Positions 14,761-22,759 of a DNA stretch of 64,000 bases are shown piece by piece. The translations under genes were made by a program, and so were the position numbers. The stretch spans positions 1 to 64,000 of the forward strand of contig JALVZQ010000002.1 in the NCBI GenBank assembly GCA_027037535.1, given 5' to 3'. Position 1 is the first letter of the stretch; each line of letters opens with the position of its first letter. The notes beneath the pieces were generated by a model. It did no database searches. It saw only the letters and a list, made by a program, of their open reading frames with translations, and was not told the origin of the DNA. This DNA is from Acidilobaceae archaeon. Its GTDB lineage: Archaea > Thermoproteota > Thermoprotei_A > Sulfolobales > Acidilobaceae.

Positions 14761-14779
14761 GTTTCGAGAGGTGTCCTGT

Positions 14780-16066
14780 ATGAACAAAAACTTGGCGATA
14801 GCTCTCGCAGTGGTTATAATAATCATAATCGCTGCTGTACCCATACTAATGAAGCAGGGTGGAGGAGAAGAAACCACTGAAGAATATGGAACGATCAAAA
14901 TCGGTATGACCATTAGCCTCCAAGGAAAATACCAGACAGAGGGCAAACAGGCGCTCTGCGGAGTTGAGGCAGCGATAAAGTGGTACAATGACAACGGAGG
15001 TATCGAAGTAAACGGCAAAAAATACAAGTTAGAGCTCAAATACTATGACGACCAGTCGAAGAAGGAACTAGTACAGAGCTACTACGCCGACCTAGTAACA
15101 AAGGACAAGGTCAACTTCCTCCTAGCACCCTACAGCTCGGGACTCACACTAGCAGCAGCACCCATCAGCCAACAGTATGGAATCATAATGATCAGCCATG
15201 GCGGAGCAAGCGACAAGATCTTCAGCCAAGGATTCCAATACGTAGTCCAAGTACTAACACCCGCAAGCAAATACTTCGAGTCCTCACTCAAACTAGTAAA
15301 AGAACAAATCCCCGACGCAAAGATAGCCTTCATCTATGAGAACAGTGCATTCAGCAACGCAGTAATGCAAGGAGCAAGCCAGATAGCCCAGCAGTACGGT
15401 CTACAAGTAGTATACAACAACACCTATGAAAAGGGACAGACAGAATTCACAAGCCTAGTCCAGGAAGCTAAGCAAGCAGGAGCAAACGTCCTCATAGGAG
15501 GAGGACACTTCGAGGACGGACAAATACTAATCAACACAGCATACAACAACGGCTGGCACCTAAAGTTCATAAGCATACTGGTAGCACCAGCACAGCCAGA
15601 GTTCGCGCAAGCAGTAGGAGACGCAGCGATAGGAGTAGCAGCACCAGCACAGTGGCACGTAAAAGCATCATACTCGCCTGACAATGTACCAAGCGGATAT
15701 GTATGGGCTGGTCCAACCAAGGAAGAGTGGCTCCAAGCATTCCACGAAGTATGCCCCGATATAGAAACACCCGCCTACCAGGCAGCAGAAGCAGGTGCAG
15801 CAATAGTATTCCTCGTTGAGGGAATAAAAAGTGCAAATAGCCTAGACAACCAGGCAGTAAGACAAGCAATGAACAATTTAGCAATCTATACATTCTTCGG
15901 ACCACTAAAGATAGACCCAGATACAGGTAAGCAAATAGCACACCCGATGATCGTGATACAATGGCAGGAACAGAATGGCCAACTAGTACAAGAGATAATC
16001 TATCCGCCGGACTCAGCTACTGCACAGCCACTAATAGCGCCCGCAGTCTGGTGGCCAACCGGCTAA
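14780..16066 (+). CDS. livK: Branched-chain amino acid ABC transporter substrate-binding protein
   Basis: 428 residues from ATG 14780, chosen because GAGGTG stands 7 nt upstream (a GTG at 14771 lies inside that site). N-terminal membrane anchor NLAIALAVVIIIIIAAVPIL without a lipobox Cys, so it is tethered by an uncleaved or signal-peptide helix rather than lipid. Then a type I periplasmic-binding fold: KIGMTISLQGKYQTEG, LLAPYSSGLTLAAAP, AFIYENSAFSNAV. It captures branched-chain or other amino acids outside the cell for the LivHMGF complex encoded downstream. Codon use (CTA, ATA, GGA) suggests high expression. Confidence 0.92.
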   Translation: MNKNLAIALAVVIIIIIAAVPILMKQGGGEETTEEYGTIKIGMTISLQGKYQTEGKQALCGVEAAIKWYNDNGGIEVNGKKYKLELKYYDDQSKKELVQSYYADLVTKDKVNFLLAPYSSGLTLAAAPISQQYGIIMISHGGASDKIFSQGFQYVVQVLTPASKYFESSLKLVKEQIPDAKIAFIYENSAFSNAVMQGASQIAQQYGLQVVYNNTYEKGQTEFTSLVQEAKQAGANVLIGGGHFEDGQILINTAYNNGWHLKFISILVAPAQPEFAQAVGDAAIGVAAPAQWHVKASYSPDNVPSGYVWAGPTKEEWLQAFHEVCPDIETPAYQAAEAGAAIVFLVEGIKSANSLDNQAVRQAMNNLAIYTFFGPLKIDPDTGKQIAHPMIVIQWQEQNGQLVQEIIYPPDSATAQPLIAPAVWWPTG

Positions 16067-16240
16067 GCTCCTTTCACGGAATCCTAGCTTTTTCCCTCAA
16101 CAATATATTTATAACAATCTTTTTATTGTTTAATAACCCCTAAGTCTAGTTCACTCTATGAAAGATGGGAAAACACAGAGTCAAAACTGGAGGAATCCAA
16201 TATTGAACCCCTTCATTCGTGATTGGAGGTGTAAAACACT
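16067..16240 (+). promoter_or_regulatory. livK-livH intergenic: T-rich terminator and second promoter candidate
   Basis: 174 bp between the binding-protein gene and the permease genes. It holds T runs (CTTTTTCCC at 16088, CTTTTTATTG at 16120), which are archaeal-type terminators. AT-rich TATA-like sequences stand near 16104-16113, and a strong GGAGGTG lies 9 nt before the livH start. Partial termination here would make more binding protein than permease, as is common for ABC importers (inference). Confidence 0.4.
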
Positions 16241-17155
16241 ATGGAGTTCATAAGCAACATAATATACGGACTAATATATGGTGCAATACTAGGCGCCGTA
16301 GCCAGCGGCCTTACACTCATCTGGGGAGTAATGAAAGTAGTAAACTTAGCCCACGGACACCTAGCAGTACTAGGAGCATTCCTAGCAGTAATATTCTATA
16401 AATACACGCCGATAACAATCGACCCCTCTCTAAGCCCTATCATAGCGTTCATCATAGGAGCCCTCTTCGGAATATTCTTCTACTATACGTCACTACACGT
16501 CATCGTAGGAAAAGCAGAGACAATGACCCTCAAGGTAGAGATGAGCAGCCTTCTATCAACATTCGGCTTCGGAGTAGCACTCTACGGACTCCTCTACTAT
16601 GGTAGTGCTCAAGGCTGGTATCTACAATTCGAAGGACTAACAGGCTGGACAATACAAGTAGGAGGAAAACCCTACTTCGAGATACTAGGAGTATCAATAC
16701 AGTATAGCTGGCTTGTAGGATTATTCTACGCAGTAATACTAATAGCCCTAGTCGAACTATTCCTGAGAAAAACCGTCTGGGGACTAGCAATAAGAGCGGT
16801 AGCACAGGACTCACGGGCAGTGGCACTTACAGGATACGATCCTGTAAAGGTCAAGCTCCTAACAACAGTCCTATCGACTGCAATGGCTCTAAGCGCAGGC
16901 GCAATATTCACACTCTACATACAGAACGGTATAAACCCCGACCTAGAACACTTCCTAGCCCCACTAAGCTTCGTCATAGTAGTACTAGGAGGCCTAGGCA
17001 GCGTTATAGGAACATTTATCGGAGGCCTCATCATCGGACTAGCCTATGGCATAACGATGGCATTAACCGGCACCCAAGCAATAGCACTCTCCGTATCCTT
17101 CGTTATCCTAGTAGTAATCCTACTCGTAAAGCCACAGGGACTGTTCGGAAGGTGA
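16241..17155 (+). CDS. livH: Branched-chain amino acid ABC transporter permease LivH
   Basis: 304 residues, about eight membrane helices. Family signatures are GLTLIWGVMKVVNLAHGHL near the N terminus, IRAVAQDSRAVALTGYDPVKVK in the cytoplasmic loop that contacts the ATPase (about 185-206), and LGGLGSVIGTFIGGLIIGL. Forms the translocation channel with LivM. ATG start behind GGAGGTG. First gene of a tight four-gene run (livH-M-G-F). Confidence 0.94.
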   Translation: MEFISNIIYGLIYGAILGAVASGLTLIWGVMKVVNLAHGHLAVLGAFLAVIFYKYTPITIDPSLSPIIAFIIGALFGIFFYYTSLHVIVGKAETMTLKVEMSSLLSTFGFGVALYGLLYYGSAQGWYLQFEGLTGWTIQVGGKPYFEILGVSIQYSWLVGLFYAVILIALVELFLRKTVWGLAIRAVAQDSRAVALTGYDPVKVKLLTTVLSTAMALSAGAIFTLYIQNGINPDLEHFLAPLSFVIVVLGGLGSVIGTFIGGLIIGLAYGITMALTGTQAIALSVSFVILVVILLVKPQGLFGR

Positions 17156-17164
17156 ATAGCCGTG

Positions 17165-18154
17165 ATGGAGATAACAAAGTACCTCAAGAAGCCCTCATCC
17201 TACATCATGTGGCTACTCATCATAGTATTCGGTATTGTCGGAGTACAATACTATGCAGGATACATCAGTGCATCCACCGCAGCAATATTTATGGACCTAA
17301 TGAAGTTCATCGGCATAGCATTAAGCCTTGCAGTAATAATGAGCTACACAGGATACGTAAGCTTCGGACATGTAGTATTCTTCGGAATAGGAGGATTCTT
17401 CACAGCATACGAACTAAGCAAGTACTCGCAACAAATACTCCAAGGCGGCAACCCCTACACTATATTCCTAATGGGCATGCTGATAGGAGTAGGACTCTCA
17501 GTACTCCTAGCGGCAACAGTGGGAGCAGCCGTGCTAAGGCTCAGAGGAGCATTCTTCGCAATAGCAACCATAGGCCTAGACTACGTCATCCTCTACCTAG
17601 AAATGACCTATAAAGGTGGAGCAGGAGGAGGAGAAATATACTTCAACGTGTCGAGACCAAGGTTCCTCGAAGAAACATACTTCGTCTTCTTCATAGCGTT
17701 CGTAATAACACTAATCATAGCATACATTGTAAAAGTCTCCAAGTTCGGCTACGGACTCGCAGCGATAAGAGAAGACGAAGACGCAGCAGAAGTAATAGGA
17801 GTAGACACGGTAAGATACAAGATCTACGCATTCATGATAGCCGCAGGGCTCGCAGCCATCTGGGGAAGCGTATACAGCTGGAGACAATTCAACTTCACTC
17901 CAGAAAACTTCAGCCTAGGTATAAGCGTAGACATGATCGTGATGAATGTTATCGGAGGACTAGGAACATTCATAGGACCAATAATAGGAGCATTCATATA
18001 CTACATAATCTATAGACTAACAAACACCTACTTGCCACAGCTAGCATACATTATACTTGGAATCATAGTCGTCGCGGTAGTATCATTCCTACCAGAAGGA
18101 GTAGCAGGACTCATTCGATCAAAATTCCCTAACCTAAGAAAATACTTCGAATAG
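17165..18154 (+). CDS. livM: Branched-chain amino acid ABC transporter permease LivM
   Basis: About 329 residues from ATG 17165 (a GTG one codon earlier is possible). Nine to ten hydrophobic helices. LivM hallmarks are SYTGYVSFGHVVFFGIGGFF, LRLRGAFFAIATIGL, the ATPase-contact loop GLAAIREDEDAAEVIGVDTVRYK, and NVIGGLGTFIGPIIGAF. It starts 9 bp after livH, so the pair is co-translated and makes the heterodimeric channel. Confidence 0.94.
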   Translation: MEITKYLKKPSSYIMWLLIIVFGIVGVQYYAGYISASTAAIFMDLMKFIGIALSLAVIMSYTGYVSFGHVVFFGIGGFFTAYELSKYSQQILQGGNPYTIFLMGMLIGVGLSVLLAATVGAAVLRLRGAFFAIATIGLDYVILYLEMTYKGGAGGGEIYFNVSRPRFLEETYFVFFIAFVITLIIAYIVKVSKFGYGLAAIREDEDAAEVIGVDTVRYKIYAFMIAAGLAAIWGSVYSWRQFNFTPENFSLGISVDMIVMNVIGGLGTFIGPIIGAFIYYIIYRLTNTYLPQLAYIILGIIVVAVVSFLPEGVAGLIRSKFPNLRKYFE

Positions 18155-18170
18155 CCGGGGTGGAACAGAG

Positions 18171-18953
18171 ATGGCGGAAGGAGATATTGTAATTCTCAGG
18201 GTCGAGAAAGTCACTAAAAGATTCGGAGGGCTCGTAGCTCTATCAGACGTAAGCTTCGAAGTAAACCAAGGAGAAATACTAGGACTGATAGGCCCCAACG
18301 GAGCAGGAAAAACAACGCTCTTCAACGTTATAACAGGAGTCTACAAGCCAGAAGAGGGAAGAGTAATATTCAAGAACAAAGACATAACCGGGCTAAGACC
18401 CCATAAGATTGCAAGAATGGGAATAGCTAGAACCCACCAAATAGTCAAGCCCTTCGGAGACCTAACAGTACTAGAAAACACTATGATAGGAGCCCTATAT
18501 GGGAGAAGACACGGCCATATAACAGAGGAAGAGGCAAGAGACATTGCACTAGACATACTTGAATTCGTAGGACTAAAAGAAAAAGCAGATCTCCCAGCCA
18601 GAATACTAAACATCCAGGAGAAGAAAAGACTAGAGCTCGCAAGAGCCCTAGCAGAGGAACCAGAACTACTCCTACTAGACGAGGTACTCGCCGGACTAAA
18701 CCCAAGCGAAGTAGCAAAAATGCTGGACCTACTAAGGAAGATCCGGTCAGAAAAGAATGTAACAATGATAATGATAGAGCACGTAATGCACGCTGTAATG
18801 AACCTAGCAGACAGGATCGTAGTACTCCATTTCGGAAGAAAGATAGCAGAAGGAACGCCCGAGGAAGTGGCAAGCAATCCAGAAGTAATAACAGCATATT
18901 TAGGAGACCCAGAAATGGCCCTCAAATTCGTCAAATCGCTGAAAAAGGGGTGA
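18171..18953 (+). CDS. livG: Branched-chain amino acid ABC transporter ATPase LivG
   Basis: 260 residues. Walker A GPNGAGKTT (41-49), Q-loop region TGLRPHKIARMGIARTHQI, Walker B ELLLLDEVLAGLN, and H-loop MIEHVMHAV. The signature motif is odd: where LivG proteins usually have a Gly-Gln pair before RRLE, this one reads ARILNIQEKKRLELARAL, without the Gly-Gly/Gly-Gln. It should power transport as a dimer with LivF, whose signature is canonical. The last base pairs overlap livF by 4 nt (GTGA). Confidence 0.92.
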   Translation: MAEGDIVILRVEKVTKRFGGLVALSDVSFEVNQGEILGLIGPNGAGKTTLFNVITGVYKPEEGRVIFKNKDITGLRPHKIARMGIARTHQIVKPFGDLTVLENTMIGALYGRRHGHITEEEARDIALDILEFVGLKEKADLPARILNIQEKKRLELARALAEEPELLLLDEVLAGLNPSEVAKMLDLLRKIRSEKNVTMIMIEHVMHAVMNLADRIVVLHFGRKIAEGTPEEVASNPEVITAYLGDPEMALKFVKSLKKG

Positions 18954-19675
18954 TCGCAGTGACGTACGTGCTTGAATTAGAAAAACTAGAATCAGGATAT
19001 GGAGAAACCCAAGTACTCTTTGGAGTAAATCTCAAGGCCAGGAAAGGACAAATAACAGCACTACTCGGAAGCAACGGAGCCGGAAAATCAACAACACTAT
19101 GGACAATAATGGGAATAGTCAAGCCCTGGGGAGGCAAAATACTGTTCAACGGAGAAGACGTAACCATGCTACCACCCTATAAGAAAGTCAATATTGGCAT
19201 GACACTAGTGCCAGAAGGAAGAAGACTATGGCCACAACTAACAGTAGAGGAGCACCTAATTATGGCAGCAAGCATCCCAAGAAGCAAGGAGAGGGCACAA
19301 GAAATACTAGAAATGGTCTACCAACTATTCCCCCGACTCAAAGAGAGAAGAAACCAGCTAGCAGGCACCTTGAGCGGTGGAGAACAACAAATGCTAGCAA
19401 TTGCAAGAGGACTCATGCTAAACCCAGTACTATTCATGCTTGACGAGCCCAGCCTGGGACTAGCGCCCAAACTAGTACAAGAAATAGCCGAGACGATCAG
19501 CAAGCTCAGGGATGAATGGAAGCTAACCGTACTGCTTGTAGAGCAAAACATACACATGAGCATGCAAATAGCAGACTATGCCTACATCATCGAGAACGGT
19601 CGCATAGTTCTTGAAGGAACAGTAGACGAGCTCAAAGAGAACCCAATGGTTAAAAAAGCATATCTCGGACTCTAA
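18950..19675 (+). CDS. livF: Branched-chain amino acid ABC transporter ATPase LivF
   Basis: 241 residues. Walker A LLGSNGAGKST (38-48), canonical signature LSGGEQQMLAIARG, Walker B VLFMLDEPSLGLAP, H-loop LLVEQNIHMSM. GTG start overlapping the livG stop (GTGA); a GTG three codons later is also possible. Terminal gene of the operon; a T-rich stretch follows (TTGTTTCCCC, TTTGTTTTCC near 19678-19720). With LivG it forms the ATPase pair of the importer. Confidence 0.94.
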   Translation: MIAVTYVLELEKLESGYGETQVLFGVNLKARKGQITALLGSNGAGKSTTLWTIMGIVKPWGGKILFNGEDVTMLPPYKKVNIGMTLVPEGRRLWPQLTVEEHLIMAASIPRSKERAQEILEMVYQLFPRLKERRNQLAGTLSGGEQQMLAIARGLMLNPVLFMLDEPSLGLAPKLVQEIAETISKLRDEWKLTVLLVEQNIHMSMQIADYAYIIENGRIVLEGTVDELKENPMVKKAYLGL

Positions 19676-19737: not shown

Positions 19738-21273
19738 CTACTTGTAGAGTGATATCTTAGGATACGGCACATATACCTTTTCCCCTGCGGCCTCAAAGTC
19801 CACCTGAAGAAACCTCATGTTCTCCTTGTGGTATCTCCCACGCGTCAGCAATCGAACCAATACCACTAGCTGTAAGAAGTAGTACATTGCCTCGTCATAG
19901 CTAAGATCCCGTACCCGCATAGCCATTTCTTCACATGATGGGCTATCTACCAATACTATGTCTGTACCGGCAAGCATAGGGTGAATCTTCCATAGCCTAT
20001 ATGCTCCTATGTCTCGTGTCACTATGATACTTTTTGATAGTAGAAATGGATCCATCATTGGTAGAACTGCCTCACACTTATGGGCCATATGGGATGAAAC
20101 CAGCTCTCCCCTGCCACTAATTAATAATTCTTCGAGACCCATGTATGCCGCGAGATCTATGAACACGTCTCCGTACTCATGTGCTTTAGCGCTCTCAGAA
20201 TATATGGCTGAAACCTCATAGAATATACAGTAGGGGACTAAGACCTCTATACCCTTATATGCTATATTGTGGACCCCGGCATACATCATGTTAGAATCAA
20301 CAAGCAGGGACTTACCACTCCCCCTAGCTAAATCTTCTAGCTTTCTACCAGCCACTCTTGAGCTACATGAAGCACCGGAGCATTCAACTATTCTCGGCAT
20401 GGAAAGGCCGCTTATATAGATTAGTTGTCTAAAAGCGTTACGTCTATGGGTTTTTAGTCTTCCATGGATCTTTAGTTGGCCCCATAGCGAATCCATGAAC
20501 CTACAAACTTCACTCGTCAAGTTTCCGAGAGCTTCTATGAATTCCCGCTCGTCGTGTATAGGTAGGATGAAGTCTATGGCTTCACCCATGTAGTCGCTTG
20601 AGAGAGCTAAGCGGAACGATGCTTCATGTGGCTTGATATCATCTAGCGATAGTCTTTGTGTAGGTCCGGGAATAACCGTCTTAAGAGCCACATTTATCCT
20701 CCTAGACAGTTCAGCTATTGCACAGCGTAGAGGCGGTAGTCCTGGCTTGCCCTTGCTAATAGAACATAAATTTTCTAGGTTTTGGTATCTGTTGGCAAGG
20801 CCTTTAGTACACGGTATCTTACACTTGAATCCTTTCTTCTTGGGAAGTACTACGGATCCAGGAATATACGGGTACTCGAGACCTTTCCATAGAAGGCCTG
20901 GCTCATACATGTACCAAGTCTCCGGAATCTTGCTTATTTCGCTCTCCCTAAGAGCATTGAGGAATCTGCTTAGGATCACCCAGCTATGAGGCAAGGCAAC
21001 TATGACGCTATTGGTTTCATCACTCACTAGTTCCTTAATCCTGTCGATGGGAGTTACATCATCGCTCATAACAATAATGTTACATCCGGAACAGCCCTCA
21101 AGCCTCCTATCGATTTCTGAGAGTTCTTTCTCTAGAACGGGCAGCGATTCTTCACTTGAGAAAATATAGAAGTGGTGCTCACTCTCTGGAAAGAATTCGA
21201 GCAGTCTAAGTATGTATCCTTTTAGACCCTCCGCGAGCTCCTTCCTATGACCTACGAAAACCAACACGTTCAA
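19738..21273 (-). CDS. Large protein with N-terminal Rossmann-like region and C-terminal PIN nuclease domain
   Basis: 511 residues, no family recognised with certainty. Residues about 320-440 fit a PIN nuclease: LLVDSNMMYAG (Asp326), IFYEVSAIY (Glu353), MDPFLLSKSIIVTRDIGAYR (Asp408, Asp421), with all acidic positions kept. Residues 1-115 alternate strands and helices (MNVLVFVGHRK, HHFYIFSSEES, NIIVMSDD, SVIVALPHSW) like a Rossmann or CARF-type sensor. The middle holds a Cys pair (151/155) and a basic region RLKTHRRNAFRQ. It stands alone between livF and a permease. Nuclease activity is a fair prediction; the trigger and the CARF reading are speculative. Confidence 0.7.
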   Translation of the reverse strand: MNVLVFVGHRKELAEGLKGYILRLLEFFPESEHHFYIFSSEESLPVLEKELSEIDRRLEGCSGCNIIVMSDDVTPIDRIKELVSDETNSVIVALPHSWVILSRFLNALRESEISKIPETWYMYEPGLLWKGLEYPYIPGSVVLPKKKGFKCKIPCTKGLANRYQNLENLCSISKGKPGLPPLRCAIAELSRRINVALKTVIPGPTQRLSLDDIKPHEASFRLALSSDYMGEAIDFILPIHDEREFIEALGNLTSEVCRFMDSLWGQLKIHGRLKTHRRNAFRQLIYISGLSMPRIVECSGASCSSRVAGRKLEDLARGSGKSLLVDSNMMYAGVHNIAYKGIEVLVPYCIFYEVSAIYSESAKAHEYGDVFIDLAAYMGLEELLISGRGELVSSHMAHKCEAVLPMMDPFLLSKSIIVTRDIGAYRLWKIHPMLAGTDIVLVDSPSCEEMAMRVRDLSYDEAMYYFLQLVVLVRLLTRGRYHKENMRFLQVDFEAAGEKVYVPYPKISLYK

Positions 21274-21472
21274 AACCTACACCCTCCTAACGTTGTAAAT
21301 ATCTAGTCTCTACCGGGACCCGAACATGGCCTATACAGCCACTAGCGTCGAAATTCTACTATGTTCAATACGTATTAATATAGTTACTAGAAAGAAAATT
21401 AAGACAAATTAATGTAAATGTGCAATACCACCCAAAAATAAATCCTTAAATAGCATTGTTATGAACTAACGA

Positions 21473-22759
21473 TCACCAATACAACACGTATATTAATCCG
21501 CCCCCAATCAGTGTCGCCATTACGACGGAGGCCAGTACTTTTACAATCACAGGAGAGAACCTTGCATTAAAATATGTTAGTGTAAGGGCTAGACATAGGT
21601 GAACCGGACTAGCCATCACGCCCAGAAAGCCTCCCAGATAGGCGACGGAGAGATAACCCCAGTTGACGCTGCTGCCTATACCTATAACAGCTGCAAGCAA
21701 AGGTATGGCTGTACTAGCAAAGAAGTTCTCTCCTCCTGCCGCCAGTCCAAGTACAAATGGTATAATGTATAGCATTATAGTCAATGGTAATAGATCCTTG
21801 TCTAGTAAATTAGCTGTACTAGTAGCTGCTCCACTATTAATTATCATATTCTTGAACAAAAGACTCTCAAACAATACAATGTGAATTGTAGGCTTTGTAG
21901 CAAGCTTTAGTGCCTCAATCCATCCTTTCCGATCCGGGATCTTGCTAAGAACAGTTAACAAGACGACGATAACAAGTGAGACCAGCATCGGCTCATCAGA
22001 ATACCATGGAATCATAGATGACAATGTCGAACTCATCTCTGTCCTAGATAATATGAAGAGGACAGCCAATAATAGTAAAGGCCAGAAACTCGCCAAGAAT
22101 AATCTAAGTGGATTTTCAATGCTCTTTTTTCCGCATGCTAGTCCGCGGAGCACAAAGTAGGCCATGACCAGGCCTCCAATTATCGCACCAATTGTTCCCG
22201 GCCATGTATGACTCACTACATCTAAAGGATCTATAGCTAGAACTGCAGCTGTAATAACTACGCTCTGGAACAATGGCCATACAGGCACCCATAGATGTCT
22301 AAACCAGTAGTTAATGTATGTCGCGTCTTCGGGTGAAAGTCGGGCTTCCTTGAAAAACTTATCCTTTAACGCTATAGCGCTTACAAGTGCTCCGCCCGGC
22401 ATCGGCATTAATCCTATAATCGCTGGAACACCTAGGAGACTGAACCTACAGCTGACTCCTGAAGTCGATTCTACCAGCCCATCTAGTTTTCCTTGAGCCT
22501 TCATTATACCTGCTAGGAACATGCTGAGAAATATGTATACGAAAACCCGTATATCATTCCAAGAATAGAGGCCAAGGAATGATTTCTCTAGTTCACCAAT
22601 GCTCATAGATAACGCGAAGAATACCACGATGAGAATCACTAGACTATAGTATACGCGGACACCTTTACTACTAGCAACAACTAATAGCGTGTAGCCAAGA
22701 ACAAATGCTAATAGTGGATCGACTAGCTTCACTTCGATCTCATCTCCGCCAGTTGGCAT
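21473..22759 (-). CDS. DUF401 family membrane protein (putative permease)
   Basis: 428 residues with ten or more hydrophobic helices. Diagnostic of DUF401 are LMPMPGGALVSAIAL (about 118-132), the following charged segment with YINYWFRHLWVPVWPLF, and LAAGGENFFASTAIPLL late in the protein. The family belongs with the ArsB/CitM-like permeases, and its substrate is unknown. No obvious operon partner. An AT-rich 200-bp gap separates it from the PIN-domain gene. Confidence 0.85.
   Translation of the reverse strand: MPTGGDEIEVKLVDPLLAFVLGYTLLVVASSKGVRVYYSLVILIVVFFALSMSIGELEKSFLGLYSWNDIRVFVYIFLSMFLAGIMKAQGKLDGLVESTSGVSCRFSLLGVPAIIGLMPMPGGALVSAIALKDKFFKEARLSPEDATYINYWFRHLWVPVWPLFQSVVITAAVLAIDPLDVVSHTWPGTIGAIIGGLVMAYFVLRGLACGKKSIENPLRLFLASFWPLLLLAVLFILSRTEMSSTLSSMIPWYSDEPMLVSLVIVVLLTVLSKIPDRKGWIEALKLATKPTIHIVLFESLLFKNMIINSGAATSTANLLDKDLLPLTIMLYIIPFVLGLAAGGENFFASTAIPLLAAVIGIGSSVNWGYLSVAYLGGFLGVMASPVHLCLALTLTYFNARFSPVIVKVLASVVMATLIGGGLIYVLYW

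Follow-up and report, generated by a model that had tools for sequence, protein, structure and literature searches.

The window, that is, the whole stretch of 64 kb analysed here, carries an open reading frame of 511 codons on its minus strand (21273→19738), exactly where an earlier note on this DNA had placed it. The gene (19738..21273) starts with a TTG codon, and a Shine–Dalgarno-like AGGAGGGTG (21280..21288, minus strand) lies 6 nt before this start and also upstream of the sister gene described below. It is flanked by a branched-chain-amino-acid-type ABC transporter operon (14771–19675, plus strand) and by a DUF401 gene (21473–22759, minus strand). Its G+C content, about 0.43–0.46, is similar to that of the flanking DNA, and the idea of a foreign base composition was rejected on this ground.

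The closest relative is a syntenic orthologue (L001) in a congener, genome G003, which is 93% identical and lies on a 10.7-kb contig whose whole length can be aligned with the window (86% DNA identity); no nearer relative was detected among 398 genomes sampled across the phylum. Comparison of both genes yields a synonymous divergence of 0.81 and a nonsynonymous divergence of 0.033, hence an overall dN/dS of 0.042, and such an orthologue under such a constraint shows that the frame is not a chance one. The ratio amounts to 0.054 for residues 1–128, 0.046 for residues 129–300 and 0.030 for the PIN part. Both halves of this CARF-PIN protein are under strong purifying selection, and the values for the sensor and PIN halves indicate that the sensor is maintained and is not decaying. 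The stem branch leading to the window pair in the family tree is long (2.28 changes per column), as could be expected for a decaying or non-functional copy, but the full-length frame, the retention of all PIN acids and the low ratio at a synonymous divergence of 0.8 make this explanation very improbable, and a dead copy was rejected on the overall dN/dS.

In a PADLOC profile search, the protein was recognized as CARF_m3--CARF_PIN (PDLC01984, E = 2.8e-37), mostly via residues 311–485, and a second stretch (approximately residues 129–206) matches the CARF half of the profile weakly (E = 5.8e-6). The same model is matched by all 24 members of the family alignment. As judged from these matches and from the full-length collinear homologues, the protein is by descent a member of the CARF_m3–PIN family already known from crenarchaea, and the CARF-PIN identity first read from the sequence is thus borne out at the level of descent. 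Pfam and NCBIfam profile searches with the window protein gave no match, a PDB sequence search with either the protein or the family profile as query returned chance matches only, and no relatives were found in the viral contigs searched. Makarova et al. (2014, PMC4012209) described two families of CARF-PIN fusions, and a limited search of the open-access literature retrieved no characterised CARF-PIN protein. Within the order, CARF_m3--CARF_PIN is present in 71 of 214 genomes by profile search, with a scattered distribution, the matches in f9, one of its families, being remote (E about 1e-6 to 1e-11). The CARF_m3 name likely goes back to work by Makarova et al. in 2020. Of note, two CARF-PIN copies are split in two ORFs (L043, 1393–2959, in G168, and L019, 436–2106, in G057); a frameshift, decay or an assembly error may account for this.

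The PIN nuclease domain, delimited by the PADLOC profile and the family alignment, covers residues 311–485 (19819..20343, minus strand). Its four acidic residues had been placed at positions 326, 353, 408 and 421. In the 33-row family alignment, where counts refer to the rows aligned at each column, the predicted catalytic residues D326 (20296..20298), E353 (20215..20217) and D421 (20011..20013, all minus strand) are conserved in 33/33, 31/32 and 31/31 rows, respectively. D408, however, was rejected as the third acid: 9 of the 33 rows have a gap in its column, whereas all 31 rows aligned at residue 401 carry D or E there. The third acid is thus most consistently read as E401 (20071..20073, minus strand), and the PIN active site, with the set 326/353/401/421, is intact by alignment. 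Across 24 homologues, W129, P135, N194, D326, P347, E353, T419 and D421 are invariant. Two cysteines, C349 (20227..20229) and C400 (20074..20076, both minus strand), adjoin acids 353 and 401 and covary perfectly in the family alignment (28 rows with C/C, 3 with A/A and no mixed row), pointing to a possible conserved disulfide beside the putative active site in these hyperthermophile proteins. A metal-binding, Cys-containing middle, as initially imagined, found no support, since the cysteines in that region are not conserved in the family and the conserved pair sits inside the PIN domain. The AF2 model of the full-length protein, obtained with two sequences, was too poor to be used (pLDDT 39.5).

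The N-terminal half starts with a predicted Rossmann-like, CARF-derived sensor domain of four beta-alpha units (residues 1–110, 20944..21273, minus strand), recognized by AF2 modelling and collinear profile alignment. The AF2 model of residues 1–145, also obtained with two sequences (pLDDT 66.6, pTM 0.67), displays a beta-alpha alternating Rossmann-like fold with the succession E2-6, H11-27, E34-39, H41-55, E65-70, H76-82, E89-93, H98-110 and E120-122. Block-mean pLDDT values range from 68 to 83 over residues 1–110, and residues after 122 are unreliable. The strand/helix alternation noticed earlier is thus supported with moderate confidence, and the model points to a Rossmann-like fold class. 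Foldseek comparison of this model with the PDB retrieved generic Rossmann proteins (best E = 1.7e-3) and no CARF among the 50 best matches. The CARF type of Rossmann core comprises six strands, the last two of which (5 and 6) form a hairpin. In hhalign comparisons, residues 1–214 match the family N-terminus over 197 columns (E = 5e-14), and residues 1–128 by themselves, in global mode, give a weak family match (E = 0.002). The best conserved part of this half lies further on, at residues 129–199 (20677..20889, minus strand; family alignment), and includes the motifs W-x-G-x-x-Y/F-P at 129–135 and LPPLRC...RRIN at 179–194. Since residues 1–128 match weakly and the 50 best Foldseek matches are devoid of CARF, it is by homology and collinearity with the family that the sensor is identified as CARF. 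When the family N-terminus was compared directly, as a profile, with the Csx1 protein of the same genome (one sequence), no significant match emerged.

The main peculiarity of the sensor is found just after strand 4 of the AF2 model (89–93), where LPHSWV (residues 94–99, 20977..20994, minus strand) takes the place of the CARF ligand-loop signature present in 30 other homologues, such as SPASRR or SSAGRR. The 29 other family rows covering the loop, as well as L090, have S-x-[AG]-[SG]-R or a near variant (e.g., SPASR), with S at the first position and R at the last one in 25/31 rows each. Among the 32 proteins inspected at this region, the signature is wholly different only in the window protein and its sister. 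The window pair has W98 at the position of the basic residue (K/R) that directly follows strand 4 in CARF domains, versus R in 25/31 rows, and the window protein has G8 in place of the polar S/T at the end of strand 1, which is found in 14/25 aligned rows and is frequent, not universal, in CARF domains (PMC4012209). Makarova et al. (2014, PMC4012209) place the K/R after strand 4 in the ligand pocket and consider that CARF families without it may have other ligands. This was proposed for the RtcR and Rv2818 CARF families, most members of which have no basic residue there (PMC4012209), and W98 therefore argues less against CARF descent than against the binding of a canonical ligand. Because this lineage alone has replaced the signature, gating of the window protein by cyclic oligoadenylate (cOA), evoked in the earlier note, is not supported.

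The 64-kb window contains neither a CRISPR array nor a PADLOC cas match, and the gene thus lies neither in nor near a type III locus. The remark that no CRISPR locus is near holds true at this scale, a complete type III-B system being found on another contig, and the free-standing location is confirmed as typical of the CARF_m3--CARF_PIN family. Among the neighbours listed for 20 sampled CARF-PIN neighbourhoods, none is conserved beyond close species; CRISPR arrays occur within the examined stretches in three genomes (G051, G168 and G047). In another congener, G001 (L085), a gap of 17 bp devoid of any gene separates the flanking genes LivF and DUF401; this genome encodes a CARF-PIN of its own, a different and canonical one, at another place. 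The tree does not unite the window pair with the G001 copy but groups it with that of G065, with a support of 94/94 that narrowly misses the starred level. This grouping and the empty junction suggest that the gene was gained between LivF and DUF401 in the lineage of the window genome (G000) and G003; it may alternatively have been lost from this junction in G001.

Such a setting, with metabolic genes around and no defence gene nearby, would also suit a sensor that binds no small ligand at all, the protein then being a stand-alone RNase controlled by protein partners, by redox through C349–C400 or by expression, possibly in housekeeping RNA processing. The loss of the loop signature and the covariation of the two cysteines next to two catalytic acids go in the same direction. 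We nevertheless consider this explanation unlikely, since residues 1–128 are still strongly constrained (dN/dS 0.054) and the patchy spread of the family, together with a gain at an otherwise empty junction, is unlike the behaviour of a housekeeping gene.

The other contig of the window genome (G000:C3:144863-158304; L054, L055, L089) harbours a type III-B Cmr locus that is complete (Cmr1, 3, 4, 5 and 6, together with Cas10), as well as an array of about 40 CRISPR repeats. The GGDD motif of this Cas10 is intact, at residue 856, and the enzyme could thus be a plausible source of cOA. The genome also encodes a CARF9-HEPN Csx1 with R-x4-H (G000:C3:156829-158304). CARF effectors act in trans through a diffusible messenger. 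The main rival reading is that of an ordinary accessory effector, in which cOA made by the type III-B Cas10 would be sensed in trans by the CARF-PIN protein alongside Csx1, the altered loop still binding it. The occurrence of Cas10 in 26 of the 44 good-quality genomes with the family may be taken in its favour, but the signature is lost only in the window lineage, the sister genome G003 (86% complete) has no Cas10 match and the family as a whole lacks a significant association with Cas10, so that we regard this rival as rather unlikely.

This last point comes from 118 good-quality genomes, 44 with the CARF-PIN family and 74 without. Cas10, scored by TIGR02577 or PF22335 and tallied by hand, with profile sensitivity as a caveat, is matched in 26/44 and 34/74 of them, respectively (Fisher p = 0.19, phylogeny ignored); across the order, CARF-PIN thus shows no significant association with Cas10. 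Among the 18 good genomes with the family and without Cas10, 17 are also without RAMP matches (G201 has RAMPs), and nine correspond to remote f9 matches. When only strong matches are retained (E below 1e-15), 8 of 26 good genomes have no Cas10, and neither Cas10 nor RAMP was detected in G017, G025 (L057, L058), G033, G064, G125, G127, G047 and G130. Two of these genomes, G017 and G025, are closed; cas1 is present and the CARF motifs of their CARF-PIN proteins are intact. As to alternative signal sources, mCpol was absent in 20/20 genomes tested. SMODS was set aside, since each genome gave a single weak match, to a protein of about 430–500 aa that is probably a CCA-adding enzyme.

The reading that we favour, to which we give about an even chance of being right, is that the window protein is a divergent CARF_m3-PIN protein acting as a signal-gated RNase with an altered ligand specificity, where RNase activity, gating, dimerisation, the change of ligand and a role in defence are what we infer. 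The C-terminal PIN domain (D326, E353, E401, D421) would be the RNase, metal-dependent by analogy with PIN RNases, and the N-terminal Rossmann/CARF-like sensor would restrain it. The nuclease would be turned on when two sensor domains, paired as a dimer, bind a small and probably nucleotide-like ligand, and infected or stressed cells could then become dormant or die. Because LPHSW replaces the canonical loop, the sensor most likely answers to a signal other than ordinary Cas10-made cOA. The weak family match of residues 1–128, the lack of CARF among the 50 best Foldseek matches and the complete Cmr system with an intact Cas10 cyclase motif, which could supply cOA, speak against this reading. 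More tentatively, the CARF-PIN family could be an at least partly type III-independent signalling nuclease, the sensor of the window lineage having been re-tooled for a non-cOA ligand. This combined reading, possible though doubtful, draws on the relatives with intact CARF motifs in closed genomes without detectable Cas10, RAMP or mCpol. The presence of CARF-PIN in a third of the genomes of the order, often without Cas10, makes one ask to what signal these CARF domains respond. As a natural and selected ligand-loop variant, the window protein would help to separate cOA-dependent from cOA-independent gating.

The nearest known system is the CARF_m3--CARF_PIN family itself (PDLC01984/PDLC01983), with which the window protein shares its architecture, length, collinear homology in both halves, four PIN acids and stand-alone location. 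It differs from the other members by LPHSW in place of the canonical loop signature, by a GLL insertion after YMYEP (residues 126–128) and by a full-length aligned identity to them of 17–24%. The Csx1/Csm6 proteins (CARF-HEPN; PADLOC CARF9--CARF_HEPN) have a similar organization, with an N-terminal CARF-type sensor and a C-terminal RNase-type domain. In contrast, the Csx1 of the window genome bears HEPN instead of PIN, adjoins the Cmr genes and keeps an intact CARF motif region (LLDTTHG). The RtcR and Rv2818 CARF families (PMC4012209), likened here from their description, resemble the window protein in that most of their members have no basic residue after strand 4, and differ from it in their output domains, a sigma-54 AAA+ module in the case of RtcR.
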